From Bacillus sp. FJAT-29937 (GTDB lineage Bacteria > Bacillota > Bacilli > Bacillales > Cytobacillaceae), in assembly GCF_001509555.1 (NCBI RefSeq), contig NZ_LMAS01000004.1, positions 1 to 64,000 on the forward strand: a stretch of DNA of 64,000 bases. The letters are read 5' to 3'. Position 1 is the stretch's first letter. Each line of letters begins with the position of its first letter. Below, one piece after another: positions 5,772 through 21,697 of the stretch. Both the position numbers and the translations under genes were made by a program. The notes under the pieces are model-generated. The model was not told the origin of the DNA. It worked only from the letters and a program-made list of their open reading frames with translations, and did not search any database.

Positions 5772-8411
5772 CTATTTCATTATTTCTTGTATTTCATTTT
5801 GAGAAAAAGATTTGTAATCAGCGCCTAGAACCGGTAAATTACTAAGAATAAGCACTTTGACCGGATATCTATTGACACGTGCCCGTCCTATCGCTTGTAT
5901 CAATTGACTTTCTATCAGGTAAAACTGAATTTCCCTCAATAAAGACTCACCATTATATGTAGTAAAGTAAAATCGCAAACCATTCCGTTCAACTTGTCTA
6001 TATTCCATACGGCTTTCTTCCAAACCCATGCGAAAGCCTAGACAAACACCTATTAACAAGTATGCAATAGGATTAATATGTGGTGTACCAATAACCGTAA
6101 TATTCTTACCTTTCATTGAATCAATTCCTTCAGTATTTCCGAAATAAAGGTTTTCTTCTCTTTCAATTTGGAAGAAATCTTTATATGAAATAATTTCGCT
6201 GCAGGGATTATATCGTTGTATAAGATTTTCTGCCAATTTTATTAAGTCTTTTTCATTCTCTTTTATCGTGTACCTGCTAAAACTTTTAGATGTAACTTGT
6301 AGTATACTACCCTTTGGCTTTACTTCACCTAAATCATAAAATTGGACATTGTTTCCAAATGCAAGTTTGGAAATTTGTTCATTCGCAGTGGCGCTTAATA
6401 TAATTATTTTTCTATTTTCAGGAAGCTGGTTCCTGTTTATAAAATAAACCCACTCTTTATCATTTACTCTCTTTTTTATAAAATAATCGCAATTCAAAAA
6501 TCCTAATATATCAGAATGAATATTTGAATCTTCAATAACGGTATGTTCCATTTCTTTAACTGAAGGAAGCAGAAATGAGGAACGCTCATGTACTACATCT
6601 GACGGAGCATCAATTATCATCTTTTGTAGTGCCATGATTACATCTTTATTATCTTGATTTTCCTGTAGTTTTGTAAAAGCATAAACTAAATCGGATTGCC
6701 TCATTTGGGAAATAGGAAACAATGAAGGAATTGGGTCTTCATCGAAAATAATGGTTGAATTTGAATCATCATTAGTGTAAATTGCCCTTTGGTGTGTTGT
6801 AAGGAGGATCCCACCTTTAGTTTTCTTAATTTTTTCCAACTCCTCAAGGAACATTCTGACTTCATCATTTTCTAATGATAATTTACGCAAATATTTATTA
6901 ACAGCCTTATATGCACCAATATTGTATAAATGTTCTACTTTATCTCTAAAATGGGCTTCAAGTGTTGGTAATTCCGGAACTTTAAAGTGCTGAACATTTT
7001 GCTCTTTAAGTCGTAGAGAGACTTCATCCTTCAATTTGTGAGTAGGAAATGCAACGCTGAAAGTATAATTCTTGGCACTATTGATTATCAATTCCGTTTT
7101 TCCAATACCTGTTGGAGCCTTAATGACATAAACTCCCTTCTCATTATTCCTTAGAAGTTCCCCACACAGATCCTCCAAATTTTTATATACTTCATCAACT
7201 TCTTGAAAATGTAACTGATTTAGAACTTGAACACTTCCACGCGGTAATTTTCCCTGTTCAATCATGTTTTTGGTATGAGTACATTCATTAGCAAATGGAC
7301 AAAATGATTCACACCTAGACGGAAGATAGTTCATTTTCTTAATTTGGTTCAACATCAATGACCAATCTTCTTTCTTCTGAAGATACTCACTTCTTGAATT
7401 GATAATCTCAACAACTTTAGACTTGCCACCTTCAATGTTAAGTAGGTTAGTCATTAAACCAAACATTTCATGATGGTATAACCAATATTCTCCAGAAACT
7501 GCCTCACGATAAAGTTTACATCTATCCTCCAACGTTCCGAATGGAAAGTTCCGAATTAACTTCACGTTTTCTTCCTGCAATAAACCGTTAGAATATTCGC
7601 TATTGAATTTTGAATCTTTTTCAAATACTAAATAGTAATCACTATGACTAATTTCTGCACGCGTCCTATAGTAATTAATAGGGTTAGTGCGGTTTTTATT
7701 CAACGAGACATAAATTGAACTATTCCCTTCTGGTGCAACACTATCATTAATGACTTTATAGTAGGGATAACCCTTGTATAAACTAAGATTAGTTACCTCA
7801 CAGAACTTCTTTATTTCCCTTGATGAGTTTGTCCCTGTTTTTAACTTTATTACCACAGCATCTAAAAGTTGGGGAACTGTCAGCATAGAATTGCTAGTAA
7901 ATTCAATTTTCTTTCCACCAAAAAAGAATCTTGCCTCATCATTTGCATTTGGATCTGCAGCAGGAAACAACGTGGTCAAACTTTTTTGTATTATTTTTCT
8001 TACTCTGGTATCTTGGATTTCTTCATTTAATAAAAAAACCATTCGAAATTTATGTTGGTTCTCTAAATGACTAAATGATGAGTAAATAAAAATTGGTTTA
8101 ACATTTATATCTTCAGAATGTTTAATAGCCTCATCGATTCGTAATCCTCTGTCGATATCTATTGCAAATAATTGCTGACCAGCCCAATTATCATTCAACC
8201 TTTTTTCTGTTTGGAAGTAAGCAGGCGTAAATGATTGAGCATTTGGTAACGTAATAGATTTCATTAATTCTTCAATAGTAACCTCTACCCTTTGCTTTGC
8301 AATCCTAGAAGAGATATCTATAATATCCTCTTTCTTAGGCTTTTGTATAAATCCTTCCCAGTCTAAGCATACCTTAATTCTGTTCTTAAAAATTGTATCT
8401 TCCTTAACCAT
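5772..8411 (-). CDS. Primase-helicase-like replication protein
   Basis: An 879-residue multidomain protein. Residues about 75-185 look like an archaeo-eukaryotic primase (PrimPol-type) core: FAIDID with a D-x-D pair at 85/87, then HKFRMVFLL (119-127) and DPNANDEARFFFGG (152-165). A C-x3-C-x5-C-x-H cluster (C366, C370, C376, H378) may bind metal or Fe-S. The C-terminal half is a superfamily 2 helicase: Walker A APTGIGKTE (431-439), a TTHQ motif near 537, a DEDP box (556-559) and motif VI QAIGRAR at about 839-845. Likely replicates or processes the element's DNA. GGGGGG within a leader hairpin precedes the ATG. Domain order is visible; the exact family is not certain. Confidence 0.7.
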   Translation of the reverse strand: MVKEDTIFKNRIKVCLDWEGFIQKPKKEDIIDISSRIAKQRVEVTIEELMKSITLPNAQSFTPAYFQTEKRLNDNWAGQQLFAIDIDRGLRIDEAIKHSEDINVKPIFIYSSFSHLENQHKFRMVFLLNEEIQDTRVRKIIQKSLTTLFPAADPNANDEARFFFGGKKIEFTSNSMLTVPQLLDAVVIKLKTGTNSSREIKKFCEVTNLSLYKGYPYYKVINDSVAPEGNSSIYVSLNKNRTNPINYYRTRAEISHSDYYLVFEKDSKFNSEYSNGLLQEENVKLIRNFPFGTLEDRCKLYREAVSGEYWLYHHEMFGLMTNLLNIEGGKSKVVEIINSRSEYLQKKEDWSLMLNQIKKMNYLPSRCESFCPFANECTHTKNMIEQGKLPRGSVQVLNQLHFQEVDEVYKNLEDLCGELLRNNEKGVYVIKAPTGIGKTELIINSAKNYTFSVAFPTHKLKDEVSLRLKEQNVQHFKVPELPTLEAHFRDKVEHLYNIGAYKAVNKYLRKLSLENDEVRMFLEELEKIKKTKGGILLTTHQRAIYTNDDSNSTIIFDEDPIPSLFPISQMRQSDLVYAFTKLQENQDNKDVIMALQKMIIDAPSDVVHERSSFLLPSVKEMEHTVIEDSNIHSDILGFLNCDYFIKKRVNDKEWVYFINRNQLPENRKIIILSATANEQISKLAFGNNVQFYDLGEVKPKGSILQVTSKSFSRYTIKENEKDLIKLAENLIQRYNPCSEIISYKDFFQIEREENLYFGNTEGIDSMKGKNITVIGTPHINPIAYLLIGVCLGFRMGLEESRMEYRQVERNGLRFYFTTYNGESLLREIQFYLIESQLIQAIGRARVNRYPVKVLILSNLPVLGADYKSFSQNEIQEIMK

Positions 8412-8418
8412 TGTGATC

Positions 8419-8437
8419 CCCCCTTTCTATAAGGAGG
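8419..8437 (-). promoter_or_regulatory. Leader hairpin overlapping the ribosome binding site of the primase-helicase
   Basis: Minus-strand CCTCCTT pairs with AAGGGGG (7 bp, one G-T) across a 5-base loop; the 3' arm is the G-rich ribosome binding site of the gene starting at 8411. It is the strongest of the four related hairpins and could limit translation of the replication protein. Confidence 0.5.
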
Positions 8438-8808
8438 AGCATGGTATTTAATAGTGTTTTAATGAAATTCTCTTAATTTTGTTTTTATCAACTCCTCTAA
8501 ATCTTTCTTCAATGGTTACAGCTACATAATATTTGACCTAATTTTTGTTTTCAAATTTTTAGCGTAAGTATTTTATGATATAAGTTTACTTTTTACAGGA
8601 TTTTGGCCAGTTACATTGAATCATGAAAATGAAAATGCCTTAAAACCCTACAAAAGAAAGGAAAGGAGAATGTCGTGGAAAAACGTCGTGGAATTACTAT
8701 TCTACGTAATAAAAGATTAATATTTGATTATTTTTTATAACAGAAAGGGCTATTAACTCAAGAAAATTTTGTCGTGGAATAAATTAATCTAAAAAATGGG
8801 GTGATTCT
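8438..8808. other. 370-bp region upstream of the recombinase with a 9-bp triple repeat
   Basis: No supported gene. GTCGTGGAA occurs three times in the same orientation (8672-8680, 8685-8693, 8771-8779). A 21-codon frame with a GTG start at 8675 and a good AGGAG site ends at a TAA, and the same frame stays open for 13 more codons after it. It could be a leader peptide or a remnant. The repeats may be arm-type recombinase sites. Confidence 0.35.
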
Positions 8809-9633
8809 ATGTTAGACATATATCTCGTAGAAGGACTAAGAGGGAAGTCTAAACAAACGATAAAAACATACACTTTTTGCCTTTCTCAATTCAAAACGTG
8901 GCTAGATGGTGCCGGTACTAGTTTAGAAGATTACTCACGAACTGATGTACAATTATATGTTAATTATCTTGTTAGCAAAAGATTTGCAGCTACTACGATT
9001 AACAAACATTGGAGTTCGATTAAACATTATAGCCGATGGGCTAAAAAAGAAGAAACGATTGAGGACATATCTGTAATCTCTCCACCTAATATGTTAAATG
9101 AAGCACCAAAGTCGCTAAACCGGAATGAAATACACAAGATTATTCGTGAGATTGATCGTTCTGGAAACGTCCGAAACTTTGCAATTGTTCAGTTATTAAT
9201 AAACACAGGAATCAGACTGAATGAATTAGTACAACTTGATCGTGAAGATATAGAAATAACTGAACGGAAAGGGTCCGTAACCATTAGATATGGAAAAGGT
9301 AATAAAGAACGGAAAATTCCTTTATCTTCAGAGACTAGGAGAGCCATTTTAAAATATTTAGAAACCCGAGAGGATCAGCATGAAGCATTGTTTCTTTCGA
9401 ATAGATATAAACGAATTTCAGAAAGAACTGTTCAACATATTTTTCAAAGATACGATATTAATGTACATGCTTTTAGACACACATTTATTACAAAACTAGT
9501 TAGAAACGGTGAAGACTTTAGCATCGTCCAAGCATTATCAGGACATGCAAATGCTGATATGGTTATGAGGTATGCTGCACCGAATGAGGAAGATAAAAAT
9601 GAGGCAGTCACAAATTTGTGGTTGACTGACTGA
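8809..9633 (+). CDS. Tyrosine recombinase (XerC/D-like integrase)
   Basis: A 274-residue recombinase with a SAM-like core-binding N-terminal domain (about 1-90, YLVSKRFAATTINKHWSSIKHY) and a complete catalytic domain: R136 in TGIRLNEL, the beta-turn lysine region YGKGNKERKIPL (161-172), H220-x2-R223 in HAFRHTF, H246 in SGHANADM and the nucleophile Y255. It lacks the arm-binding AP2-type N-terminus of phage lambda-like integrases, so it resembles plasmid or conjugative-element resolvases. GGGG lies before the ATG. It is the only plus-strand gene in the block and points away from the primase-helicase; probably responsible for integrating or resolving the element. Confidence 0.9.
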   Translation: MLDIYLVEGLRGKSKQTIKTYTFCLSQFKTWLDGAGTSLEDYSRTDVQLYVNYLVSKRFAATTINKHWSSIKHYSRWAKKEETIEDISVISPPNMLNEAPKSLNRNEIHKIIREIDRSGNVRNFAIVQLLINTGIRLNELVQLDREDIEITERKGSVTIRYGKGNKERKIPLSSETRRAILKYLETREDQHEALFLSNRYKRISERTVQHIFQRYDINVHAFRHTFITKLVRNGEDFSIVQALSGHANADMVMRYAAPNEEDKNEAVTNLWLTD

Positions 9634-9641
9634 AAGTAATA

Positions 9642-9681
9642 ATATCAAAAGAGCTTCAAAATAATGGAGCTCTTTTGATAT
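9642..9681. terminator. Terminator after the tyrosine recombinase
   Basis: A 14-base arm (ATATCAAAAGAGCT) repeats inverted after a 12-base loop. Convergent with the gene at 9717, so likely used from both sides. Confidence 0.8.
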
Positions 9682-9716
9682 ATGGTAGAAATATTCTGAA
9701 TGAATACATATTTAAA

Positions 9717-10040
9717 TCAAATTACCTGTAACATATAGCCCAACTCAACTGGAACATCTGAATGCAAATCCTGTCGTAAAATGCTGAACTCTAGTCTGTG
9801 CTTAGAGCAAGTATTTTCGAAGATTTTAAAATTTTTAAGCTCCCTAAATTCTTCATAATCATAGATTATTACTCTTTGAATATTATTGTTTTCTTTTTCC
9901 ATATTAAGAAACTCATTCAATAGCGAAACATCATTTAGACTTATAACCATTGTCTTTTTATAAAATAAATCTCCATGTATTTTAATACTTTCAGCGTATT
10001 GATTATACTTTTTTAAATCAAATACTACCCCTAAAAACAC
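9717..10040 (-). CDS. Small hypothetical protein, possibly resolvase-fold
   Basis: A 107-residue protein starting MFLGVVFDLKKYNQ. The alternating strand-helix pattern (FLGVVF, VISLNDVSLLNEFL, QRVIIYDYEEF, LEFSI) is like the degenerate resolvase-domain proteins at 3334-4873, but there is no catalytic motif and the resemblance is weak. The usual AGGAGG is replaced by GGGGTG. It is the last gene before the methyltransferase that opens the sulfur region, so it may mark the right part of the first element. Function unknown. Confidence 0.4.
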   Translation of the reverse strand: MFLGVVFDLKKYNQYAESIKIHGDLFYKKTMVISLNDVSLLNEFLNMEKENNNIQRVIIYDYEEFRELKNFKIFENTCSKHRLEFSILRQDLHSDVPVELGYMLQVI

Positions 10041-10197
10041 GTAATCACCCCAACTAATTTATTAGTACTTACTATATTAACGCGAATCTAATCATCTTCA
10101 AGTCTTAATTTTCATTAAAGGTTTTATCATCTAATTAACCGCCAACTAGAAATGATTTCTGTCCTACTGATAAATGCAAAAAGACTCCAAAGTTATT

Positions 10198-10797
10198 TTA
10201 TTCTCTTTTTTGCCCCACAAACTGAATAACATGTGACAAACCATTATGAAGTTCTCCTTCATTCCTTACAACCTCGCCCATAAAAAAGTGAACAATCCGC
10301 CAATCTGAAAATATGCTTAGAAACTCTTCTGGTTTGTATAGCAATTCTATATTTTGTGGTCCACCACTTTTGTATGGTAGTTGATATACCGAATACACCT
10401 CTGAAATAAAATAACCACCTGGCTTAACTGATTCTTTGACACCTTCAAGTGTTTTTGTACGTAATGCCTCTGGAAAGTGACCAAAAATACAAATCAATCC
10501 ATCCCACTGATCTTTATCCCAGTTAGCTTCATTTAAGTCTACAAGCTTTGTTTGAACTGTTACGTTTCTATCCTTGGCAAGCTTTTCTGTTTTAGCCAGT
10601 CCGGATTGCGCATAATCCCATGCAGTTACATTCATTCCTTGTTGCGCCAAGTAGACTGCATTTCTACCTTCTCCTTCAGCAATAGCCAATACATCTCCTG
10701 ATAGGTTTAATTTTTCATGGACATCCGCAAGAAATACGTTTGGATTAGTTCCATAAACATAATTCTCATTTTTAAATCGATCATTCCAGGAATTCAT
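10198..10797 (-). CDS. Class I SAM-dependent methyltransferase
   Basis: A 199-residue methyltransferase. Motif I is seen as DVLAIAEGEGRNAVYLAQQG (about 34-53), followed by the acidic strand end VTAWDYAQSG and motif IV-like WDGLICIFGHFP (about 97-108). The overall shape matches the TehB/thiopurine-methyltransferase-like group that often handles small thiols, selenium or tellurium compounds. AAGGAGAA precedes the ATG. It is the downstream-most gene of the run lgt-like/ccdA/resA-like, separated from the latter by 26 bp, so probably in the same operon. Substrate is unknown; the sulfur/selenium setting makes a chalcogen substrate attractive but unproven. Confidence 0.75.
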   Translation of the reverse strand: MNSWNDRFKNENYVYGTNPNVFLADVHEKLNLSGDVLAIAEGEGRNAVYLAQQGMNVTAWDYAQSGLAKTEKLAKDRNVTVQTKLVDLNEANWDKDQWDGLICIFGHFPEALRTKTLEGVKESVKPGGYFISEVYSVYQLPYKSGGPQNIELLYKPEEFLSIFSDWRIVHFFMGEVVRNEGELHNGLSHVIQFVGQKRE

Positions 10798-10823
10798 AGC
10801 TTGTTCTCCTTTGGTTTAATTTT

Positions 10824-11390
10824 TTAGTCGACACTTTTTATTAATTGCTCCATCATTTCCTTATTCATCGGTCCGACAATTTTCTTTCGAACAATCCCCT
10901 GCGAATCAATTATATAACTTGTTGGGATCGTAAAAGCTTGATATGTTTCTCCTGTATCGCCTTTAGTATCAAGCAGTATTGGAAAAGTTAATCCATAATC
11001 TTTTACAAATTTTCCAATATCGTTTGTGTTCTTTTCTGCAGTCGTTAAATTAACTGCTAGGATTTCTACATTTTCTTTTTGTTGATCTAGATAAAACTCT
11101 TGCATATGAGGCATTTCAGCTTTACAAGGAGGACACCAAGTAGCCCAAAAATTTAAAATGACTTTCTTTCCTTTATAGTCAGACAGTTTTACTTCTCTTC
11201 CTTCAAAAGTCTGGAGTTGAAATTCAGGTGCCAAATTCCCTTCTTTTATTCCACTAATTAAATCATTATTTTCTATTCGATTGTTAAGGGAGGTTTCATC
11301 CATATTGTCTTTTTCTGAAAATGCATAGTCATATACTCCCCAACCTAAAAGACCAATCAAACCTACTAAGACGAGTATTTGTTTGTTCAT
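10824..11390 (-). CDS. resA: TlpA/ResA-family thiol-disulfide oxidoreductase
   Basis: A 188-residue membrane-anchored thioredoxin-like protein. Residues 4-20 form an uncleaved N-terminal anchor, then a thioredoxin domain with the active site WCPPC in FWATWCPPCKAEM (about 81-93) and the cis-proline region FTIPTSYIID (about 153-162). ResA/StoA-type proteins reduce disulfides outside the membrane with electrons from CcdA. It overlaps the ccdA stop by 4 bases (ATGA), a sign of tight coupling with its electron donor. The symbol is by family; which ResA/StoA/YneN branch it belongs to cannot be settled here. Given the neighbours it may act on sulfur-carrier proteins instead of cytochrome c. Confidence 0.85.
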   Translation of the reverse strand: MNKQILVLVGLIGLLGWGVYDYAFSEKDNMDETSLNNRIENNDLISGIKEGNLAPEFQLQTFEGREVKLSDYKGKKVILNFWATWCPPCKAEMPHMQEFYLDQQKENVEILAVNLTTAEKNTNDIGKFVKDYGLTFPILLDTKGDTGETYQAFTIPTSYIIDSQGIVRKKIVGPMNKEMMEQLIKSVD

Positions 11391-12112
11391 AATCCCACTC
11401 CTTTAAAAATCGTGAATGTAGAGAGATAAGCACTGATTTTTTCCATTTGACCAGTGAATAATAAAAACCCCATTATGATAAGAATTACTCCATTAACTAA
11501 CGAAAGCTTTGGTAACACCTTATTGATTCTTTTAATCACATTTAAAGAGTATGTCACAAGAAAAGATAACAAAAGAAAAGGAATACCTAGTCCTAAGGCG
11601 TATATCCATAATAAAAACATACCAGAATAAATCGTTTCTGTTGAACTAGCCAGTAATAAAATGGACGATAAAGCAAGTCCTACACAAGGTGTCCACCCTG
11701 ATCCAAATGCTAAACCAAGGATAAATGATTTTAGAGAACTAGCTTTGGACTTCCTACTATAATCAAACCGTTTTTCAGTCATTAAAAGCTTTATTTTAAA
11801 TACACCAAGCATCTGCAATCCAAAAATAATGATGAGGAATCCCCCTATCATTTGAATCAATTTCTTATTATCTAAAAATATTTGTCCTACAACACTTGCT
11901 GAAGCTCCTAATAACACAAATACAATACTAAATCCAAAAATAAAACTTATTGAACGAGACAATAGGACACTCTTCTGGGTATTTACTTTTCCATCTTTTA
12001 CTGACCCATTGGTTAAATGGGCAACATATGCAGGAATTAATGGAAACACACAAGGTGAAAAAAATGAAAGTACCCCTGCAGTTAATGCAAAAAATATTGT
12101 GATATTCTCCAA
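11387..12112 (-). CDS. ccdA: CcdA-family thiol-disulfide electron carrier
   Basis: A 241-residue polytopic membrane protein with six predicted segments. The two conserved cysteine motifs of the CcdA/DsbD-beta family are present: FSPCVFPLIPAY (about 18-29) and GSGWTPCVG (about 137-145). It shuttles reducing equivalents from cytosolic thioredoxin to extracytoplasmic thiol proteins. It sits between a membrane protein at 12132 and the TlpA/ResA-like gene it overlaps, forming a reductant-export operon upstream of a methyltransferase. Length and motifs are normal for the family. Confidence 0.93.
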   Translation of the reverse strand: MENITIFFALTAGVLSFFSPCVFPLIPAYVAHLTNGSVKDGKVNTQKSVLLSRSISFIFGFSIVFVLLGASASVVGQIFLDNKKLIQMIGGFLIIIFGLQMLGVFKIKLLMTEKRFDYSRKSKASSLKSFILGLAFGSGWTPCVGLALSSILLLASSTETIYSGMFLLWIYALGLGIPFLLLSFLVTYSLNVIKRINKVLPKLSLVNGVILIIMGFLLFTGQMEKISAYLSTFTIFKGVGL

Positions 12113-12131
12113 TTCTTACCCACCTTTCTTT

Positions 12132-12794
12132 CTACTGTAGTTTTCTGTCCCAAAGGTAAAGAGACAAGATTATTAATCCTATAAAAAACCACTGCTCCAT
12201 CGAGAAAATAAAGACAGTATTTTCATTGATTAGAACCAATGAGAGTATTATTTTGTAGAATGAAAATAAGACGATGACAGAAAAAAATGACTTATATGAG
12301 GATAGAATCCTTTTAACTAGAATGAGTATCAAATTAGTCAACGAATAAATGCCAATAAGAACATGATAAATGAAATTATCCTCTACAAAGGTGGCGAATA
12401 AAAAGTGATAGACAGACAGCACTGAAAAACTAAATAGTAAGCCGTATTTCAAAGTAACTAGCATTGAAATATCTAATTTCCTTGCTCTATAAATAAAGTA
12501 GTAGATTGAAAAAATAATAGCTAAAATTAAGCCACTTCTTCCTCCTGTAAAATACAACAACGACAAAGGACTTTTTATGACTAATGAAGGCTCCGTAAGA
12601 AGTAAGCTACCTTTCCAAATAAAAAAGCCTAAAAACACGCTATTAGTTAATAAGTCAAATATTGCCTTATTTTGTTCCCTATTCGGTAAGCGTAGGAGCA
12701 ATACTTTTATAAGAACTATTCCAAATAGAATTGCCACTCCAAGAAGAAACCATTTAAAGAGAATCGTAAAAGAACCGATTTGAATGATATCCAT
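12132..12794 (-). CDS. Polytopic membrane protein, distant Lgt-like
   Basis: A 220-residue very hydrophobic protein with six or seven predicted membrane segments. The opening (IGSFTILFKWFLLGVAILFG) and a GGRSG turn near residue 85 recall the first half of prolipoprotein diacylglyceryl transferase, but the catalytic HGGLxG and other Lgt residues are missing, so lipid transfer is doubtful. GGAGGTACCC precedes the ATG. It begins the operon with ccdA and the TlpA-like gene and might be a redox membrane partner. Family assignment is weak. Confidence 0.5.
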   Translation of the reverse strand: MDIIQIGSFTILFKWFLLGVAILFGIVLIKVLLLRLPNREQNKAIFDLLTNSVFLGFFIWKGSLLLTEPSLVIKSPLSLLYFTGGRSGLILAIIFSIYYFIYRARKLDISMLVTLKYGLLFSFSVLSVYHFLFATFVEDNFIYHVLIGIYSLTNLILILVKRILSSYKSFFSVIVLFSFYKIILSLVLINENTVFIFSMEQWFFIGLIILSLYLWDRKLQ

Positions 12795-12828
12795 GGGTAC
12801 CTCCTAAAAAATTGCTTGATGTTTACAC

Positions 12829-12853
12829 AAAAAGGGGCTGTTTAGCCCCTTTT
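12829..12853 (-). terminator. Terminator directly after the two-TGA membrane-protein frame
   Basis: On the minus strand AAAAGGGGCT-AAAC-AGCCCCTTTTT, starting one base after the TAA at 12855. Its position argues that transcription and translation of the preceding frame end together. Confidence 0.85.
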
Positions 12854-12854
12854 C

Positions 12855-12998
12855 TTAAAACATTCTTTGAATCAAGACGATGACTCCTACCAGGAGCCAA
12901 ACTAAAATCCCTGGTCATATCGGTGGAAAAAATGACCGTGATTTTTTGTTAGGAATTCCTCAACTACCTTTTCCACAGTTGTTATGATCTTTATTCAT
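12855..12998 (-). CDS. Candidate selenoprotein: small single-pass membrane protein with two in-frame TGAs
   Basis: A 47-codon frame: MNKDHNNCGKGS, TGA (12960-12962), 14 codons, TGA (12915-12917), then PGILVWLLVGVIVLIQRMF and TAA. Read as selenocysteine the product would have CGKGS-U and PPI-U-PG before one membrane helix. The second TGA is followed, 22 nt later, by the loop of a 7-bp stem-loop (12881-12899) nearly identical to the one in the HesB-like gene at 13437. The first TGA has only a 6-bp stem with a 13-nt loop lacking the usual G. It follows the rhodanese gene by 21 bp and ends at a terminator. Ribosome binding site is weak (GGAG, 12 bases off). Alternative: a decayed gene. Confidence 0.55.
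12881..12899 (-). promoter_or_regulatory. Putative bacterial SECIS stem-loop
   Basis: UGGCUCC-UGGUA-GGAGUCA: a 7-bp stem (one G-U) with a 5-nt loop starting 22 nt after the TGA at 12915-12917, with G in the second loop position. Loop size, distance and G placement fit the known bacterial SECIS consensus, and the sequence matches the element at 13580-13598. Confidence 0.6.
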
Positions 12999-13019
12999 AT
13001 TATCAGTCTACTCCATTAC

Positions 13020-13412
13020 TTATTTTATAATTTCTCCCTGCCATTCTTGAATACCGCCACTTACACTTACAACATTCCCATAACCAATATCTTTTAAAAT
13101 GTTTGCAGCTTGAAGACTTCGTTTCCCACTCCTACACAATAGAACGATTTCCGCATCTTTAGACAGACCTTTATAATCGGATTTTAATGTGCTTAGTGGA
13201 ATGTTTTTCATCCCTTTAATATGACCTGCTTCATATTCATGGGGTTCACGCACATCAACAAAGATTATGTTACTTGATTTGGGATCCTGTAATTTTTGCT
13301 CCAACTCATTAATTGAAATTGTTTTAATACTTTTATTTTCAAACTGGGTATAGACAAAATATAATACTAAAATGACAATGGGTAGATATAATGCTATTGT
13401 TTTAATCTTCAA
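13020..13412 (-). CDS. Membrane-anchored rhodanese
   Basis: A 130-residue protein: one N-terminal membrane anchor (about 5-23), then a single rhodanese domain with VDVREPHEYEAGHIKGMKNIP and the active-site loop CRSGKRS (cysteine about residue 94). Single-domain rhodaneses carry persulfide sulfur on this cysteine. The anchor points the domain to one face of the membrane, probably outside given the lack of other segments. It lies between the two TGA-containing frames (24 bp after the HesB-like stop, 21 bp before the next), so all three form one transcript. Confidence 0.9.
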   Translation of the reverse strand: MKIKTIALYLPIVILVLYFVYTQFENKSIKTISINELEQKLQDPKSSNIIFVDVREPHEYEAGHIKGMKNIPLSTLKSDYKGLSKDAEIVLLCRSGKRSLQAANILKDIGYGNVVSVSGGIQEWQGEIIK

Positions 13413-13436
13413 AGAAACTCCTGCTTTCAGATGTAC

Positions 13437-13712
13437 TTATAGTGTAAGGACAATAAATTGCCCGCCACCCAATATGGTCTTGGTATAATCAATTTTGACA
13501 TTATTAAAATATGGTTTACTTGTTTCATGTACTAAAAAACTTATGCCGTCTTGTTCAATGATTTCATCATTTTCTAAAGCTGACTCTTCCAGAGCCAGGC
13601 GAAGCTGAGGTCCCCCTCAACCAATGCCCATTGCAAGACGAATAACCGGTTTTTTTACATCTTTAACTTCTTGTCTTATTTTTGATATCGCAGCATCTGT
13701 AATTTTAATCAA
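13437..13712 (-). CDS. HesB-like selenoprotein (in-frame TGA at the family's conserved cysteine)
   Basis: TTG start at 13712 with AGGAGG 7 bases upstream; 92 codons to TAA. The product begins LIKITDAAISKIRQEV and reaches RLAMGIG, then TGA (13617-13619), then GGPQLRLALEESALENDE. In the HesB/IscA-like family this point reads G-x-G-C-G-G-P, so TGA replaces exactly the conserved cysteine, while every other codon is intact. HesB-like selenoproteins with this U-G-G-P motif are a known prokaryotic family. A SECIS-like stem-loop (13580-13598) follows at the right distance. IscA's C-terminal C-x-C pair is absent, so persulfide or redox chemistry is more likely than Fe-S delivery. Lies 20 bp after a DsrE-like gene. 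Confidence 0.85.
13580..13598 (-). promoter_or_regulatory. Putative bacterial SECIS stem-loop in the HesB-like gene
   Basis: CUGGCUC-UGGAA-GAGUCAG: a 7-bp stem with one G-U pair and a 5-nt loop beginning 25 nt after the TGA at 13617-13619; G in loop position 2. It lies within the coding frame, as bacterial SECIS elements do. Confidence 0.7.
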
Positions 13713-13731
13713 CGTTATTCCTCCTATATAT

Positions 13732-14112
13732 TTAAAAATGTACAAATAAATCCGCTGAAACTGCCTCATTTAAAACCCATTTAATGGGGACTTGCTCAGC
13801 TGGATACTTAAATTGCGTATGGTCCTTTATATCTAAGTCCACCACATAAAATTTAACACCAGATTCAACAGCTATCTCAAGTAAATCGTTAATTGAAGGT
13901 GCGTTAAAATCAGATAGCGCATTAGACAAGTATTCAATTCCATCCGATGGAATAGGAATGTATTTATGGTCTAAAATGTTTACTCCTTTTCGTGAGAAGG
14001 CTAAGATCACATCAGCCCCGGATGAAGCAGCTCCAACGGCAACATTTAAGGGTGGGTAAGCAGACTCTAATTCATCATGAAGTGCTAATACTACAACCTT
14101 TTTCTTATTCAT
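13732..14112 (-). CDS. DsrE/DsrF-like protein without the sulfur-carrier cysteine
   Basis: A 126-residue protein of DsrE-like layout: KKVVVLALHDELESAYPPLNVAVGAASSG at the N-terminus, VILAFSRKGVNIL as the second strand-helix and VKFYVVDLDIKD where active relatives have GCQMxxD. It contains no cysteine, so it cannot carry a persulfide itself and may be a structural partner in a DsrEF-type oligomer. It lies 14 bp after the DsrE gene at 14127 and 20 bp before the HesB-like gene. Family call is by fold pattern and position. Confidence 0.65.
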   Translation of the reverse strand: MNKKKVVVLALHDELESAYPPLNVAVGAASSGADVILAFSRKGVNILDHKYIPIPSDGIEYLSNALSDFNAPSINDLLEIAVESGVKFYVVDLDIKDHTQFKYPAEQVPIKWVLNEAVSADLFVHF

Positions 14113-14126
14113 GTTTAGTCCCCCTC

Positions 14127-14474
14127 TTAATAGCTTAAAACAGCATCAGCTTGGTAGGCTGCTTCTAAAAAGGTAACAACGCCTGCAAGCTCTGCTCCAT
14201 CTATTAATTCCAAACCATCTGCAATTAACACGTTCATTTGACAACCATACAATTTAATCCCTGCCTCTAAAGCTATTTTAAAAAGTGAGACTAGATCCAC
14301 TCCATGCGTTCTCGTCACTTTTTTTAAATAACGTTTATCTAAAACACGGGCTCCATCAAGATCAAAAAATATGGTGACTTCATTTTTTGGGTTGACCATT
14401 TCAATCGATTTCTTTAGTACATAGGGAACATTTGAACTTAACGATACAAAATAGATGTATTTCTTATTTGTCAT
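14127..14474 (-). CDS. DsrE-like sulfur-carrier protein
   Basis: A 115-residue DsrE-family protein. The strand VTIFFDLDGARVLDKRY and the helix DLVSLFKIALEAG lead to KLYGCQMNV (about residues 82-90), whose cysteine is the usual sulfur-binding residue, and the C-terminus GAELAGVVTFLEAAYQADAV is typical. DsrE-like proteins receive sulfane sulfur and pass it to TusA. It follows the TauE-like gene by 52 bp and would form a pair with the cysteine-free neighbour at 13732. Confidence 0.8.
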   Translation of the reverse strand: MTNKKYIYFVSLSSNVPYVLKKSIEMVNPKNEVTIFFDLDGARVLDKRYLKKVTRTHGVDLVSLFKIALEAGIKLYGCQMNVLIADGLELIDGAELAGVVTFLEAAYQADAVLSY

Positions 14475-14526
14475 TTTTAGCCCTTCTTTCAGATAAGCTA
14501 ATTTTATGTTTTATTTTCCCCTATTT

Positions 14527-15303
14527 TTATAAGATATCTAACCAAATCTTAACAGCAGTAGCTCCAATTAATAACGCCAAAATAATTTGTAGTATTTTTG
14601 TATTCACTTTTTTTCCAGCTATTGCTCCTAATGGGGAAGCAAGTAAACTTGCAACGACCATAATAAAAGCAGGGAAATAATCAATCTGTCCAGTTGTAAT
14701 TTTACCGACAGTTGCACCTATTGATGATATAAACGTAATTGCTAGTGATGATGCGATTGTCATTCTTGTTGGAATTTTTAATACCACTAACATGATTGGC
14801 ACTAATAAAAAGGCTCCTGCTGCCCCGACGATTCCAGCACCTACACCAACAATAAGGGCTAAGATTGCTGCGAGCCATTTATTAAATTTCACCTGATCTA
14901 AAGGGATATCATCTATCCCCTTTTTCGGAATAAACATCATCACAGCTGCAATTAAAGCTAGTATCCCATAAATTAAATTAATGCCTCCTTCTGACATTAA
15001 CTTTGATCCAAATCCTCCAACAAAACTACCTACTAAAATACTAGCACCCATATACATGATTAACGTTTTATTTAAATATCCACCTTTTCGGTATGCCCAA
15101 ACTCCACCAATGGTTGCAAAGAATACTTGAATCGCACTTATACCAGAAACCTCATGAGCACTAAAAGCGGCTAAGCCAAATAATGGTGGAATATATAATA
15201 ACATTGGGTATTTAATAATTGACCCACCAATACCTAACATTCCAGAAATGTATGATCCGATAAATCCGATTAAAAATATTGTAATAATAAATCCAAAATC
15301 CAT
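14527..15303 (-). CDS. TauE/SafE-family sulfite/sulfonate exporter (copy A)
   Basis: A 258-residue TSUP-family permease with about eight membrane segments and the two family repeats, each starting with a glycine-rich helix ([20 protein letters not shown] and [20 protein letters not shown]). In cst-type operons this protein removes sulfite produced by persulfide oxidation. It is very similar to the copy at 20899. A hairpin (15321-15351) separates it from the upstream tusA. Substrate is inferred from context. Confidence 0.9.
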
Positions 15304-15320
15304 CTTGTTACCTCCTTTTG

Positions 15321-15351
15321 AAAAAAGGGAACCCTACATAGGCTCCCCCTT
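15321..15351 (-). terminator. Hairpin between tusA and the TauE-like gene (copy A)
   Basis: Minus-strand AGGGGGAGCC pairs imperfectly with GGGTTCCCTT, followed by T6. It is a probable partial terminator; the second cluster has a hairpin in the same place (21698-21732). Confidence 0.55.
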
Positions 15352-15356
15352 ATTTT

Positions 15357-15584
15357 TCAACCTTTTTTAATCCAAAATTTAAATACATCATTTTCTTCTT
15401 CATGTTTAATTAATTCATGACCACCAGATGTTGCCCAAGCTGTCAGGTCGTTTTTAGCACCCTTATCTGTTGCATGAATTTCTAGAACTTCTCCTGTTGC
15501 TAAGTCATTCATAGCTTTTTTTGTTTTTACAATTGGCATTGGACATGCTAATCCTTTTGCGTCTAAAACTTTAGTTGATTCCAT
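15357..15584 (-). CDS. tusA: TusA-type sulfur carrier (copy A)
   Basis: A 75-residue SirA/TusA protein with LDAKGLACPMPIVKTKKAM (C14 is the persulfide-carrying cysteine) and the C-terminal half DKGAKNDLTAWATSGGHELI. It moves sulfane sulfur between rhodaneses, DsrE proteins and acceptors. AGGAGG precedes the ATG. It lies 25 bp after the persulfide dioxygenase gene. Nearly identical in design to the gene at 21739. Confidence 0.92.
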   Translation of the reverse strand: MESTKVLDAKGLACPMPIVKTKKAMNDLATGEVLEIHATDKGAKNDLTAWATSGGHELIKHEEENDVFKFWIKKG

Positions 15585-15609
15585 TGTTTATTCCTCCTAA
15601 AATTAATTT

Positions 15610-16737
15610 TTATCTAACCGCACAACGGTTTGGTCCGATTTCCATTTCACGTTGTTTTTCTTCATCAGGGTTGATTTTCCCCATGTTTGTTTCACGAATT
15701 TCTTGATACGCATTTGGTTGTGGTGGTAGGTTTTCTGTTACTAGTTTTCTGAACTCATTTTCGTCTTCAATGTTTAAACCGTGATTTTTTGCAAACAGTG
15801 TTCCTAATTTTTCTGATACACTACCATCGTCATTCAATTCATCAATGATCATAAAGTGTGCTGGCAGAACAACTAAATCTTCTGATAGCTCTCTGTAGCG
15901 TAAGTACAGACTTTCTCTTAAATCTGCTACCCAATCCTCTGCCATACCAGCAAGGTCTGGTCTTCCAATTGAATCGATGAATAATATATCTCCTGAAAGA
16001 AGGAACTTTTCATCAACAACAAAAGATGTAGAACCGATCGTATGACCTGGAGAGTATAGCGCATGAATATCAATCGCCGTATTTCCGATTGTCACTACAT
16101 TTCCACCTTCTAGAGCCTCGTACTCAAATGTTACTTCTGTCGCATCTTTTGGAGGTAACCAATATGTTGCACCTGTTCTCTCAGCAATCACTCTTCCTCC
16201 TGAAATATGGTCAGCATGAAGGTGTGTATCAAAAACATGCGTAATTTTTGCTCCAATTTCATTTGCAAAATCAAGATAAATGTCAGTCATACGAGTTGCA
16301 TCGATAATCGCAGCTTCACCGTTTGAAGTAACCATGTATGATAGACATCCTTTTCCGATACGAACGAACTGATACACTTTGCCTCCATCTCTTAATTCCC
16401 CAACTTTAACTGGTTCTAAGTGTTCACTCCATGCTTTCATGCCACCTTGTAAGTAGGAAACTGTTAATCCTTCTTCAGAAAGCATCTCTGCCACCATAAC
16501 AGATGACCCTTCTTTAGCACATACAACCACTATTTCTCTATCAGAAGGAAGCTTCTCTAAGATTTCTTCCACTCCATCCAGTAATTCAAAATACGGGATA
16601 TTTAGATAGTCAAAGTTTTCACCTTCAATTTTCCAATCTTGAAAATCACTTTCGTTACGAACGTCTAGAATAAACAATTCTTCTTTATTAAATACTTTTT
16701 GAGTTACTTCTTTTGAAGTCATAGCTTTTACAGTCAT
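15610..16737 (-). CDS. Rhodanese-metallo-beta-lactamase persulfide dioxygenase (copy A)
   Basis: A 375-residue fusion. Residues about 5-108 form a rhodanese domain with C73 in VVCAKEGSS; residues about 120-330 form an ETHE1/CstB-type metallo-beta-lactamase with H172-x-H174-x-D176-H177, SPGHTIGS and [14 protein letters not shown]. The C-terminal tail [20 protein letters not shown] is characteristic of the persulfide dioxygenase group. It oxidises low-molecular-weight persulfide to sulfite, and with the rhodanese may give thiosulfate. The domain order is rhodanese first. A CstR-type operator (16745-16760) lies right before it. Confidence 0.92.
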
Positions 16738-16744
16738 ATATTTT

Positions 16745-16760
16745 TACCCCCTACGGTATA
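16745..16760. promoter_or_regulatory. CstR-type operator, site 1
   Basis: TACCCCCTACGGTATA, an imperfect inverted repeat of the T-A-C-C-C/G-G-G-T-A type, 8 bp before the dioxygenase start. It implies an internal regulated promoter in the cluster. Confidence 0.55.
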
Positions 16761-16785
16761 ATTTAATTTAAAAAAATATTTAAGA

Positions 16786-17178
16786 TTAAAAAGTAAGTGT
16801 TACATCTGCATCCTTTGCATATTCTAAAAAGGTTACTGCTCCACCAACTTGAATTCCATCAATAAATGAGTCTTTTTCTAATCCCATAACATCCATTGTC
16901 ATTTGACAACCAATGAACTTAACACCCATTTCTTGTGCCATTGCTACCAATTCTGGAATGGCTGGAACATTTGCATTAGCAAAACCTTCGGCAAAGTGTT
17001 CTTTTCCCTCCGGCATTGGAAGCTGTTTGTATGACTCTTTATGGATTAAGTTTAATCCTTCAAATGTAAAGAAAATCGCTACTTCCTGATCCGATGCTGC
17101 TGCAGCTGTTGCAATATTAAACACTTTATATGCATCAAATAATCCACCATTACTTGCTATAATTGCTACTTTATTCAT
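16786..17178 (-). CDS. DsrE-like sulfur-carrier protein (copy A)
   Basis: A 130-residue DsrE-family protein: VAIIASNGGLFDAYKVFNIA at the N-terminus, EVAIFFTFEGLNLIHKES in the second unit and KFIGCQMTMDVMGL (cysteine about residue 94) as the sulfur-binding loop, ending GAVTFLEYAKDADVTLTF. Closely similar to the protein at 23382. It lies 12 bp after the glutaredoxin gene. Expected to accept sulfur from rhodanese or TusA. Confidence 0.88.
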   Translation of the reverse strand: MNKVAIIASNGGLFDAYKVFNIATAAAASDQEVAIFFTFEGLNLIHKESYKQLPMPEGKEHFAEGFANANVPAIPELVAMAQEMGVKFIGCQMTMDVMGLEKDSFIDGIQVGGAVTFLEYAKDADVTLTF

Positions 17179-17190
17179 TCTTAATTCCTC

Positions 17191-17424
17191 CTAGTTTCTT
17201 AATGCTAGCATTATATTATTTGGATCATAACCAACAACCCACTTACCATTTACCTCTGTTTGAGGAACTCCCATTTGACCCGTCTTCGCGACTATTTGGT
17301 TCATAATCTCTAGATTTCCTTCAACATTTATCTCTCTAAAAGGTATATTTTGATCTTCCAAAAAGTTCTTTAACATAACACAATACGGACAGCGTGTGGT
17401 TGTGTATACCGTTACTGTGCTCAT
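17191..17424 (-). CDS. Glutaredoxin (copy A)
   Basis: A 77-residue single-domain glutaredoxin with the active site RCPYC in VYTTTRCPYCVML (residues 5-17), GVPQ cis-proline loop (about 53-56) and a GYDPNNI C-terminal region. It likely reduces mixed disulfides or takes sulfur off carrier proteins in this operon. Intact, unlike its counterpart at 23129, which is frameshifted just before the active site. AGGAGG precedes the ATG. Confidence 0.92.
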   Translation of the reverse strand: MSTVTVYTTTRCPYCVMLKNFLEDQNIPFREINVEGNLEIMNQIVAKTGQMGVPQTEVNGKWVVGYDPNNIMLALRN

Positions 17425-17439
17425 ATCAATTTTCCCTCC

Positions 17440-18015
17440 TTATTTATTTACACTATTGGTTTTGCCTGACCAAGCACTCATCCCTGGCACAACATTAATT
17501 ACATTAGAAAAACCTTTTTCAGCTAACTTTTGAGCTGCAAGATCACTACGGTTTCCTGTTCGGCAAACCACATAAATCTCATCTCCTGTATTTAATTCTG
17601 AGAATCGATTTTCTAACTCTCCTAAAGGAATTGAAATTGCATTAGGAATATGGTTAAAAGCATACTCTGCTGCTTCTCTCACATCTAAAACTACAATATT
17701 CTCATTTGCTAAAAGCTTCTTTTCAAGCTCTTCATTACTTGTAACATTAGGATGTTTTCTTTCAATTGTTCCATCATTGGAAGATTTTCTAAGGTAATGC
17801 TTTAACACATCTCCTTGTTCAATTGTGCCTAGATACTGATGTCCAGCGCTTTTTGCCCATGCTTCCAGGTCAGCTTTTGACCCTTTATCTGTTGCTTGAA
17901 CCTCTAAGACTTGACCAGCTTGTAACTCATTCATTGCCTTTTTTGTTTTTACGATAGGCATTGGGCAAGCTAAGCCCTTTGCATCTAATAAAAGATCTGT
18001 TTTTAATGAATTCAT
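17440..18015 (-). CDS. TusA-rhodanese fusion, CstA-like sulfurtransferase (copy A)
   Basis: A 191-residue fusion: N-terminal TusA domain (about 8-80) with C17 in GLACPMPIVK, a short acidic linker, then a rhodanese domain (about 93-185) with VLDVREAAEYAFNHIPNAIS and CRTGNRS. Fusing carrier to sulfurtransferase lets persulfide pass inside one chain, as in CstA of staphylococci. It is preceded by a CstR-type operator at 18038-18051. A close relative lies at 23788. Confidence 0.92.
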   Translation of the reverse strand: MNSLKTDLLLDAKGLACPMPIVKTKKAMNELQAGQVLEVQATDKGSKADLEAWAKSAGHQYLGTIEQGDVLKHYLRKSSNDGTIERKHPNVTSNEELEKKLLANENIVVLDVREAAEYAFNHIPNAISIPLGELENRFSELNTGDEIYVVCRTGNRSDLAAQKLAEKGFSNVINVVPGMSAWSGKTNSVNK

Positions 18016-18037
18016 AATATAAAAACCTCCTATTTAT

Positions 18038-18051
18038 TACCCTTATGGGTA
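18038..18051. promoter_or_regulatory. CstR-type operator, site 2
   Basis: TACCC-TTAT-GGGTA, a perfect 5-bp inverted repeat 23 bp before the TusA-rhodanese start at 18015. Confidence 0.75.
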
Positions 18052-18075
18052 TATTAACTTCTAAAAAAAATCACC

Positions 18076-18372
18076 TTATTTTGTTTCGCCTTCCCATGCA
18101 AGCATTCCGCCTGTCATGTTGGTTACCTTAAACCCATGACTTTCAAGAAATTGACAGGCGCGCCCACTACGTGCACCAGAACGACAAACCATGATATAGT
18201 CTTGTGACTTATCTAATTCATGCAAACGGAATTCTAATAACCCTAGTGGAATGTGGATCGCTCCTGGGATTTTCCCAGTTTCCACTTCTTCCACTTCACG
18301 AACATCAATTAGGTTTAATGGTTGACCTTCTACTAATAATGTTTCTACTTCTTTAGCGGATAACTGCTTCAT
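18076..18372 (-). CDS. Single-domain rhodanese
   Basis: A 98-residue cytosolic rhodanese: NLIDVREVEEVETGKIPGAIHIP and active-site loop CRSGARS (cysteine about residue 64), ending GGMLAWEGE. Closest local relative is the gene at 24381, which occupies the same position in the second cluster. AGGAGG precedes the ATG. Carries or transfers sulfane sulfur. Confidence 0.92.
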   Translation of the reverse strand: MKQLSAKEVETLLVEGQPLNLIDVREVEEVETGKIPGAIHIPLGLLEFRLHELDKSQDYIMVCRSGARSGRACQFLESHGFKVTNMTGGMLAWEGETK

Positions 18373-18387
18373 TTTTTCTCCTCCTTT

Positions 18388-18750
18388 TTATCTCCAGGCA
18401 CTCATACCACCTTTTACATTTGTCACGTTCGTAAATCCTAATTTTTTTAATATTTTAGTAGCATTTTGACTTCTCATTCCACTTTGACATATAACAACTA
18501 CTTCTTTGTCTTTTGATAGTTCCTTCTCCGCTTTTTGCGCAAGTTGTTGGAGCGGAAGGTTTTTAAACCCTTTGATGTTATTTCCCTTAAACTCCCCAGG
18601 AGTACGAACGTCAACAAATTGTTTATTCTTATCTTTTAATTCATTTTTTAAATCTGTTGTTGAAATTTGTCTAACACCTTTAACCGGGATGATTCGTTTA
18701 ATGATAAATAACAGAAAGAGTCCAATAATTATATAATTTAGATATTCCAA
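18388..18750 (-). CDS. Membrane-anchored rhodanese
   Basis: A 120-residue protein with an N-terminal membrane helix (YIIIGLFLLFIIKRIIPVKG) and a rhodanese domain with FVDVRTPGEFKGNNIKGFKNLP and CQSGMRS (cysteine about residue 93). The basic end of the helix suggests that the domain is cytosolic, next to the membrane. It has no counterpart in the second cluster. It lies 15 bp before the rhodanese gene at 18076 and shares its transcript. Confidence 0.9.
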   Translation of the reverse strand: MEYLNYIIIGLFLLFIIKRIIPVKGVRQISTTDLKNELKDKNKQFVDVRTPGEFKGNNIKGFKNLPLQQLAQKAEKELSKDKEVVVICQSGMRSQNATKILKKLGFTNVTNVKGGMSAWR

Positions 18751-18795
18751 ACTTACTCCCTCCTTTTTATGTAGGGGAGAATCCCCCTAACGTGT

Positions 18796-19275
18796 TTAGA
18801 TAAATAGATTTACATTTCCATCTTCTGCATCTGCTAAATACGCAGCTACACCTGCATATTCAATATTATCTAAAAGTTCTTCTTTTTGAAGTCCTAATAA
18901 ATCCATTGTCATCGTACATGCAACGAGCTTTACATCTTGTTCTTTTGCCATTTCAATTAAATCTGGAAGTGGCATTGCATTATGCTTTTTCATCACATCT
19001 TTAATCATTTTAGGACCGAAACCTGCGAAATGCATTTTTGACAGACCCATTTTGTCAGCACCTCTTGGCATCATTTTGCCAAACATCTTTTCCATGAATC
19101 CCTTTTTAACTTGAATATTTTCATCTTTTCGAAGAGCATTTAACCCCCAAAATGTGTGGAAAATTGTTACTTCATGATCATAGGCAGCTGCACCATTTGC
19201 AATAATATAAGCTGCCATTGCTTTATCATAATCACCACTAAATAATACGATTGTGGTTTTTTTCTTTTCTGTCAT
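18796..19275 (-). CDS. DsrE2-like sulfur-trafficking protein
   Basis: A 159-residue DsrE/DsrF/DrsH-family protein. TTIVLFSGDYDKAMAAYIIANGAAAYDHE starts the fold, a methionine-rich insert (EKMFGKMMPRGADKMGL) interrupts it, and KLVACTMTMDLLGLQKEEL holds the probable sulfur-carrying cysteine (about residue 123). The insert marks the DsrE2 group. It is the first gene after a regulated promoter (19356-19385) and two CstR-type operators, so it leads the copy A transcript. Confidence 0.85.
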   Translation of the reverse strand: MTEKKKTTIVLFSGDYDKAMAAYIIANGAAAYDHEVTIFHTFWGLNALRKDENIQVKKGFMEKMFGKMMPRGADKMGLSKMHFAGFGPKMIKDVMKKHNAMPLPDLIEMAKEQDVKLVACTMTMDLLGLQKEELLDNIEYAGVAAYLADAEDGNVNLFI

Positions 19276-19297
19276 GCTTGTTCCTCCTCTTTGTTGT

Positions 19298-19311
19298 TAC
19301 CCATTAGGGTA
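19298..19311. promoter_or_regulatory. CstR-type operator, site 3
   Basis: TACCC-ATTA-GGGTA, perfect inverted repeat in the 5' leader of the DsrE2-like gene, 23 bp before its start. Confidence 0.75.
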
Positions 19312-19342
19312 TTTATCTGTATAATTTTTTTACACTTATCTC

Positions 19343-19356
19343 TACCCCCATGGGTA
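19343..19356. promoter_or_regulatory. CstR-type operator, site 4
   Basis: TACCC-CCAT-GGGTA, perfect inverted repeat that begins at the last base of the -10 element of the promoter at 19356-19385, well placed to block initiation. Confidence 0.8.
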
Positions 19357-19385
19357 TTATATTATTAAAAATAAAAGAGAGTCAA
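19356..19385 (-). promoter_or_regulatory. Sigma-A promoter of the DsrE2-led operon
   Basis: TTGACT (19380-19385) and TATAAT (19356-19361) separated by 18 bp on the minus strand, just downstream of cstR, with operator site 4 overlapping the start point. Confidence 0.8.
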
Positions 19386-19396
19386 CCTCTTTATTT

Positions 19397-19660
19397 CTAT
19401 CTACTTCTTACAAGCAGATTGACAGCTTCTTTTAGTAGTTCTTCTGTATTTCTCTCACCAGTTTCTTCGGCGTTTCGAACACATTCCACTAAATTTGAAC
19501 TGACGACAACTCCAATTGTCCGATCAATTGCTGTTCTTGCTGCAGATAACTGAGTGATAACATCTTTACAGTCTTTATTTTCTTCCATCATTCTTAAGAT
19601 TCCTCTAAGTTGTCCTTCAATGCGCTTTACTCTGTTTTTCATTTGATCGTTGTATTCCAT
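19397..19660 (-). CDS. cstR: CstR-type persulfide-sensing repressor
   Basis: An 87-residue CsoR/FrmR-fold repressor. It has C31 (NKDCKD) and C60 (SNLVECV), the pair that forms a sulfur bridge in CstR. Asparagine stands at position 56, where copper-sensing CsoR has a histidine ligand, so this is the persulfide sensor and not a copper sensor. Five sites of the TACCC-N4-GGGTA type in the cluster match CstR/CsoR-type operators. It sits between a divergent rhodanese gene upstream (13 bp) and the main operon, and is probably made from the promoter at 20097-20125. Confidence 0.93.
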   Translation of the reverse strand: MEYNDQMKNRVKRIEGQLRGILRMMEENKDCKDVITQLSAARTAIDRTIGVVVSSNLVECVRNAEETGERNTEELLKEAVNLLVRSR

Positions 19661-19673
19661 CTGTTTTCCCCCC

Positions 19674-20057: not shown

Positions 20058-20096
20058 GTTGACTGTCCTCCTAACTTTCAGCGGCTGACAAGACTT

Positions 20097-20125
20097 ATAA
20101 TATACCGTACTGGGTATATTGTCAA
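20097..20125 (-). promoter_or_regulatory. Sigma-A promoter of the rhodanese-like/cstR operon
   Basis: TTGACA (20120-20125) and TATTAT (20097-20102) with an exact 17-bp spacer on the minus strand; the spacer is occupied by operator site 5. Confidence 0.85.
20103..20116. promoter_or_regulatory. CstR-type operator, site 5
   Basis: TACCG-TACT-GGGTA inside the -35/-10 spacer; one mismatch in the arms. Indicates autoregulation of cstR. Confidence 0.75.
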
Positions 20126-21678: not shown

Positions 21679-21697
21679 TTTCTTTTTCCTCCAATCA

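Follow-up and report, generated by a model that had tools for sequence, protein, structure and literature searches.

A probable HesB-like selenoprotein gene in a sulfane-sulfur island on a mobile element of Bacillus sp. FJAT-29937

The window, which is the whole 64,000-nucleotide stretch of DNA analysed here from Bacillus sp. FJAT-29937 (genome G000, contig C16), carries on its minus strand a 91-residue reading frame whose sole interruption is a TGA codon. The translation around that codon reads IRLAMGIG-U-GGPQLRL. The original prediction had described this frame, the TGA position, its G-I-G-TGA-G-G-P context and a ribosome binding site, and all were found as described. In the record of pBO1, a plasmid of Cytobacillus oceanisediminis 2691 that is the source of several of the neighbour-gene annotations below, the homologous stretch falls in an unannotated gap that separates two annotated genes, as read from an incomplete gene table. 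The features at the gene itself are these:

13437..13712, minus strand: predicted HesB-like selenoprotein gene of clade A (defined below), 91 residues, with selenocysteine (Sec) as residue 32
13617..13619, minus strand: TGA codon taken as selenocysteine
13580..13598, minus strand: putative SECIS hairpin, 25 nt after the TGA, with a 7-bp stem and loop UGGAA or an 8-bp stem and loop GGA
13720..13725, minus strand: ribosome binding site AGGAGG (read from 13725 to 13720), 5' of the TTG start at 13712

Elsewhere in the window, a membrane-protein frame at 28551-29417 also holds one TGA; it has no Sec-like motif, and the codon is probably an ordinary break.

The product matches PF01521 (Fe-S_biosyn) in a Pfam scan with 43.8 bits, against a gathering cut-off of 26.3, and its profile matches AQ_1857 (1nwb), HI1723 (2apn) and IscA chains. 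In these alignments the U stands opposite the first conserved cysteine, in keeping with the earlier statement that HesB/IscA-like proteins carry cysteine at the TGA site. IscA, SufA and ErpA have three conserved cysteines, including a C-terminal CxC. The CxC is absent from the window's product, and the U is the only residue of Cys or Sec type, with zero cysteines elsewhere, so that any thiol-like chemistry must rely on a single selenol. The predicted protein is a short, minimal A-type carrier of HesB/IscA-like type, with Sec in place of the first IscA cysteine.

The nine matches of the product to NCBIfam models are all sub-threshold, the best scores being 49.5 for TIGR00049 (cut-off 58.8), 47.5 for NF038090 (cut-off 85) and 46.1 for ErpA (cut-off 117); TIGR01911 scores 28.6 against 66.35. 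When 20 clade-A members were scanned against those models, the best E-values were no better than about 3e-13. Given the scores under the TIGR01911 and NF038090 cut-offs, the product is placed as a sister subfamily rather than as a member of either model. The HesB-like identity first proposed therefore holds at the level of PF01521 and of the UxGP motif, which the available text of PMC13188914 gives as the motif of HesB-like selenoproteins, and fails at the level of the curated HesB-selenoprotein models.

The TGA is conserved. A motif search gave 60 distinct 93-base clade-A contexts from many genera, and TGA is present in 60/60; the contexts come from loci L018-L126 with L048 and L049 omitted, after removal of two unrelated motif hits (L060, L088) and a paralogue (L050), and with no row from, for example, L092, L094, L096 and L099. 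Within the GTDB family, at least 46 of 193 genomes carry a copy (48 places) with at least 61% identity and exactly one TGA, and two more partial matches without a stop both start 3' of the TGA. The claim that selenocysteine use in a sulfur-trafficking island of a Bacillaceae is unusual was thus wrong, as the gene is common in this family. With a limit of E 1e-12, an order-wide profile search matched 53 of 397 genomes, including 50 with a TGA-interrupted match (clade B, described below, included), two with stop-free frames of about 50 bits and one with a frameshifted copy. One of the stop-free frames (G318) encodes an ordinary IscA-like protein that has CGCG; no full-length Cys-substituted orthologue is among the matches listed in the family or order-wide searches. 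One Neobacillus genome has two open-frame TGA copies (L062:6666-6971 and 8815-9183) and a truncated third close together.

The putative SECIS hairpin, folded alone, has an energy of -8.9 kcal/mol. Its loop, stem, spacing and energy fall within the published constraints, which in the available text of PMC13188914 are a loop of 3-9 nt, a stem of 4-16 bp, a G in the first two loop positions, a spacing of 16-37 nt and an MFE at or below -7.5. Folding energy was rejected as proof of a SECIS element, given that dinucleotide shuffles of the window's 48-nt stretch are about as stable as the stretch itself (z = -0.51), and the evidence for the hairpin is therefore comparative. The complete 7-bp stem is present in 56 of the 60 clade-A contexts, with 6/7 pairs in the other four, and a simulation with synonymous codons expects the full stem in 0.37%. 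This comparison and the 25-nt spacing bear out the 7-bp stem-loop that had been proposed to lie in the SECIS range. From codon +7 to codon +12 after the TGA, the sequence is CTG-RCT-CTG-GAR-GAG-TCR with near-zero synonymous variation; leucine elsewhere in the examined stretches is TTA in 93 of 139 cases. The fourth stem pair in clade A is G-U in 30 contexts and A-U in 29.

The same genome has a second HesB-like TGA gene (C1:286014-286292; L050:10006-10314), whose relatives are found in many of the family's genomes. In a tree of 95 columns, clade A (59 rows), to which the window gene belongs, and clade B (19 rows), to which this chromosomal paralogue belongs, are separated with 100/100 support. 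The four clade-B members scanned were also below the cut-offs of the NCBIfam models that they matched. A bulged U is important to the SelB of Escherichia coli. Such a bulge is found in the SECIS of 17 of the 19 clade-B rows, whereas clade A has an R-U pair at that place. That the SECIS of the window gene is without the bulged U seen in most sampled chromosomal paralogues is new in this analysis.

The host genome appears equipped to decode Sec. Its tRNA-Sec scores 58.5 bits against a cut-off of 47 and is also called SeC by ARAGORN, and selA and selB are matched with 560 and 354 bits. The selD gene, identified by reading the sequence, lies next to selA, divergently placed (L009:3442-4383), and has an in-frame TGA in AGUGCK, which makes it look like a selenoprotein gene itself. 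The search for selA, selB, selC and selD that had been proposed thus finds all four, and the absence of selB or selC, named beforehand as refuting a selenoprotein, is not the case.

The gene lies among a set of genes probably concerned with sulfane-sulfur chemistry:

10198..10797, minus strand: methyltransferase; homologue annotated in pBO1
10824..11390, minus strand: TlpA/ResA-like thioredoxin; ResA 151.1 bits, cut-off 170
11387..12112, minus strand: CcdA/DsbD-like membrane protein; sub-threshold matches, homologue annotated CcdA in pBO1
12132..12794, minus strand: membrane protein with a weak Lgt-like match and no Pfam match
13020..13412, minus strand: rhodanese directly downstream of the Sec gene, by profile match, with an N-terminal hydrophobic stretch read from the sequence
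13732..14112, minus strand: DsrE2-like protein (N-terminal half) directly upstream of the Sec gene; profile matches
14127..14474, minus strand: DsrE-like protein matching the C-terminal half of DsrE2; profile matches
14527..15303, minus strand: TauE-type exporter (YrkJ-like); profile match
15357..15584, minus strand: TusA-like sulfur carrier (YrkI-like); sequence read, homologue so annotated in pBO1
15610..16737, minus strand: MBL-fold and rhodanese protein (YrkH-like, perhaps a persulfide dioxygenase); sub-threshold matches and pBO1 homologue
16786..17178, minus strand: DsrE-like protein; homologue annotated in pBO1
17191..17424, minus strand: glutaredoxin-like protein; homologue annotated in pBO1
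17440..18015, minus strand: TusA-rhodanese fusion (YrkF-like); sequence read, pBO1 homologue annotated as TusA family
18796..19275, minus strand: DsrE2-like protein (YrkE-like); NF047629 91.7 bits, below the cut-off of 210
19397..19660, minus strand: CsoR-family repressor, probably CstR/YrkD-like by inference; sub-threshold matches to CsoR-type families only

Between 13732 and 14474, the adjacent genes match the N- and C-terminal parts of the DsrE2 model, as if split. A second, partly parallel copy of sulfur genes follows the first at 20899-24701 (TauE, TusA, MBL-rhodanese, DsrE, TusA-rhodanese and rhodanese).

Neighbourhoods were compared solely with the window's own gene set, at 66 loci of which the motif missed two (L119 and L161). 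Within 6 kb of 52 distinct clade-A proteins, at least two core island genes are found for 23, at least one for 33 and none for 19, and so the sulfur link is frequent but not universal. At least two core genes are found at 0/19 clade-B loci, for which the flanks are shorter (about 4 kb); in a span of 3.5 kb the counts are 21/58 for clade A and 0/19 for clade B, with a few loci counted twice.

The island is borne by a stretch that recurs in G523, which belongs to a different family:

96..36042: mobile, probably integrative, element bearing the island; 99.9-100% identical to a stretch of G523
32296..33477, minus strand: HTH-IrrE repressor/protease of the element; Pfam scan
34622..35776, plus strand: tyrosine integrase of the element; PF00589
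35909..35980, minus strand: tRNA-Val at the right edge of the element

Beyond 36042 the two genomes differ; on the left side only 95 bases are left to the contig end. At 35909-36042, a CCCTGTCAAGG core comes after the tRNA-Val, and past it the host sequence differs between the two genomes, which suggests insertion of the element into a tRNA gene. The near-identity is interrupted at 25236-26533, where IS3-type transposase genes mark an insertion in the window's element that is absent from the G523 copy and is single-copy in the window's genome. Three Cytobacillus plasmids of 377-387 kb carry the 9.5-kb island at 93%. A new finding is that the Sec gene lies within an element of 36 kb whose copy in a genome of a different family shows 99.9-100% identity.

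The Sec genes are on contig C1 and the window is on C16. A contaminant contig, with the Sec genes from another organism, was considered in view of an estimated contamination of 9.28% and of the near-identity of the element in G523, and was rejected by synteny. The G523 genes left of the element form 65 reciprocal best pairs with C16, against 4 with C1 and 1 with C17, and those right of it form 29 with C1 against 2 with C16, at 50% identity or more and with C1 more densely sampled than the other contigs; the order is largely colinear near the element. By this synteny, C16 and C1 most likely lie next to each other on a single chromosome. Comparison with G048, a genome of the same genus, did not settle contamination, either by protein identity (median 77.9% for 29 C1 pairs and 48.3% for 19 C16 pairs, paralogues included) or by DNA-block identity (76.0% and 71.5%); nor did tetranucleotide profiles, and the single-copy insertion sequence was uninformative. 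Duplication of C16 is slight: 45 of 301 C16 frames were matched in 849 kb of other contigs, about one-fifth of the remaining genome. The 21 syntenic pairs in that sample comprise 16 that set several C16 places against one C7 stretch and 5 in one C1 block.

Nearly all carriers of the gene have selB. In the family, selB is found in 170/193 genomes and in 44 of the 46 close carriers listed; Bacillus subtilis, searched as a control, gave no selB over the cut-off. The other two close carriers (G171 and G175) gave no match to selB at the thresholds used, nor a tRNA-Sec or selA over the cut-off, and selB and over-cut-off tRNA-Sec are absent in 13/13 genomes of their genus (one of them inferred from the unlisted remainder). 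Order-wide, selB is found in 47 of 50 TGA carriers, the paralogue clade included, versus 132 of 347 other genomes. The three order-wide carriers without a selB match are G389, which has a tRNA-Sec and an assembly of 480 contigs, and G452 and G523, neither of which has a tRNA-Sec match at E 1e-7. A further copy of the Sec gene in G452 is decayed, and G454 has a frameshifted copy with no selB and no tRNA-Sec match. A TGA homologue is also present in three more selB-negative genomes of the family (G006, G078 and G145), whose assemblies are incomplete or fragmented; two of these genomes have a tRNA-Sec. The four carriers without detected selB or over-cut-off tRNA-Sec (G171, G175, G452 and G523) are new observations, and the gene seems to reach hosts where it would be expected to stay silent.

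The gene almost certainly encodes a selenoprotein, in which UGA would be decoded as Sec by the host's SelA, SelB, SelC and SelD, with the hairpin at 13580-13598 acting as the SECIS element. The original prediction of a selenoprotein is supported by the tRNA-Sec, selA, selB and selD of the genome, by the conserved TGA and by the SECIS. The overall explanation, that this selenoprotein is a minimal A-type carrier in a sulfane-sulfur island that travels as mobile cargo, is given a probability of about 0.9. In the proposed mechanism, the product would be made as part of the island, and its selenolate would accept sulfane sulfur from TusA, DsrE or rhodanese carriers as a perselenide. The sulfur would then be passed to the dioxygenase-like protein, or be released as sulfide via thioredoxin-like or CcdA-like reduction. 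Perselenide-type handling of sulfane sulfur is tentatively favoured as the most likely function, at somewhat under even odds; given the 19 of 52 clade-A proteins without core island genes within 6 kb, a sulfur role would not be universal.

The whole gene set would be cargo of mobile DNA, by an integrative element here and by plasmids of about 380 kb in relatives. As mobile cargo, the gene would work only in Sec-decoding hosts, and elsewhere its product should end at residue 31. More tentative still is the reading that Sec is chemically irreplaceable in this sulfane-sulfur protein, that the gene travels as conditional cargo which the genetic code of the host renders functional or silent, and that a single SelB reads both the bulged SECIS and the bulge-less variant of this gene. 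This reading draws on the observation that no Cys version was seen, though mobile DNA repeatedly brings the gene into apparently non-decoding hosts.

It is unlikely, if worth weighing, that the protein is instead an iron or iron-sulfur carrier like IscA, with Sec as a cluster ligand and the island supplying or repairing Fe-S clusters; membership in PF01521 and the profile matches to IscA and its relatives are consistent with such a role, but the IscA C-terminal cysteines are missing and no other cysteine is available in the window's product. A redox sensor or reductase acting on persulfides and disulfides of low molecular weight, in which Sec would form a mixed Se-S bond with a thiol and carry no sulfur, is likewise improbable. 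The single Sec with no resolving cysteine and the thioredoxin-like and CcdA-like genes downstream would fit it, but TlpA-like and CcdA-like neighbours occur at only some loci. With respect to decoding, general readthrough of the UGA, or its reading as tryptophan, has nothing found in its favour and is very improbable in a genome with full Sec machinery and a SECIS, at a position that aligns with the conserved IscA cysteine and in a family where selB accompanies nearly all of the listed close carriers. That the TGA is an ordinary nonsense mutation in a pseudogene, a reading to which the stop in the frame and the decayed copies of G452 and G454 lend themselves, is refuted by TGA in 60/60 distinct contexts from many genera and by frozen downstream synonymous sites, much as the original prediction had argued that a random nonsense mutation was not to be expected here, and it is hardly credible.

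Many Bacillaceae can be cultivated. If the overall explanation is true, it gives a concrete pathway for HesB-like selenoproteins in this family, and it adds a widespread selenoprotein subfamily that is missed by the NCBIfam models. A Sec-positive genome and an apparently Sec-negative one carry copies of the element with 99.9-100% identity, and these also constitute a natural test, which asks whether a Sec-dependent gene has any value, or any path of decay, where Sec is not decoded.

In the available text of the cited reports, HesB-like selenoproteins are an established family (PMC1794560, PMC13188914), counted as 90 proteins in 86 organisms (PMC5029168). In Methanococcus maripaludis, 75Se labelling and mutagenesis revealed one member, in a report whose accessible part calls the function of the family not clear (PMC11097638). 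The Bacillales are credited with three selenoproteins from three families in the part of PMC1794560 at hand, and a HesB-like protein may be among them. A literature search (TusA/DsrE selenoprotein; Cytobacillus selenocysteine; Bacillaceae HesB selenocysteine) listed no report of the present subfamily, for which an earlier description is possible.

With the HesB-like selenoproteins of TIGR01911 and NF038090 (IscA_HesB_Se), the window's product shares the A-type carrier domain, Sec in UxGP (here U-G-G-P) and a downstream bacterial SECIS, but it falls below both cut-offs and recurs in sulfane-sulfur islands and on plasmids. With IscA, SufA and ErpA it shares PF01521 and a U aligned with the first cysteine, and it differs in having neither the C-terminal CxC nor any cysteine and in scoring below the cut-offs of all three. 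The clade-B paralogue has the TGA, a GIGUGGPQLKL motif and a hairpin in the same position, but it belongs to a separate clade with a bulged U in the SECIS of 17 of its 19 rows and with none of its 19 loci near the sulfur set. Likened by gene types alone, the island resembles the yrkD-yrkJ cluster of Bacillus licheniformis (PMC9918477) in its genes for a putative CstR-like repressor, DsrE, TusA, rhodanese, a dioxygenase-like protein and TauE. Neither HesB nor selen- occurs in the available text of that paper, and what sets the window's island apart is that, after TauE, it has DsrE-like genes and the Sec gene.
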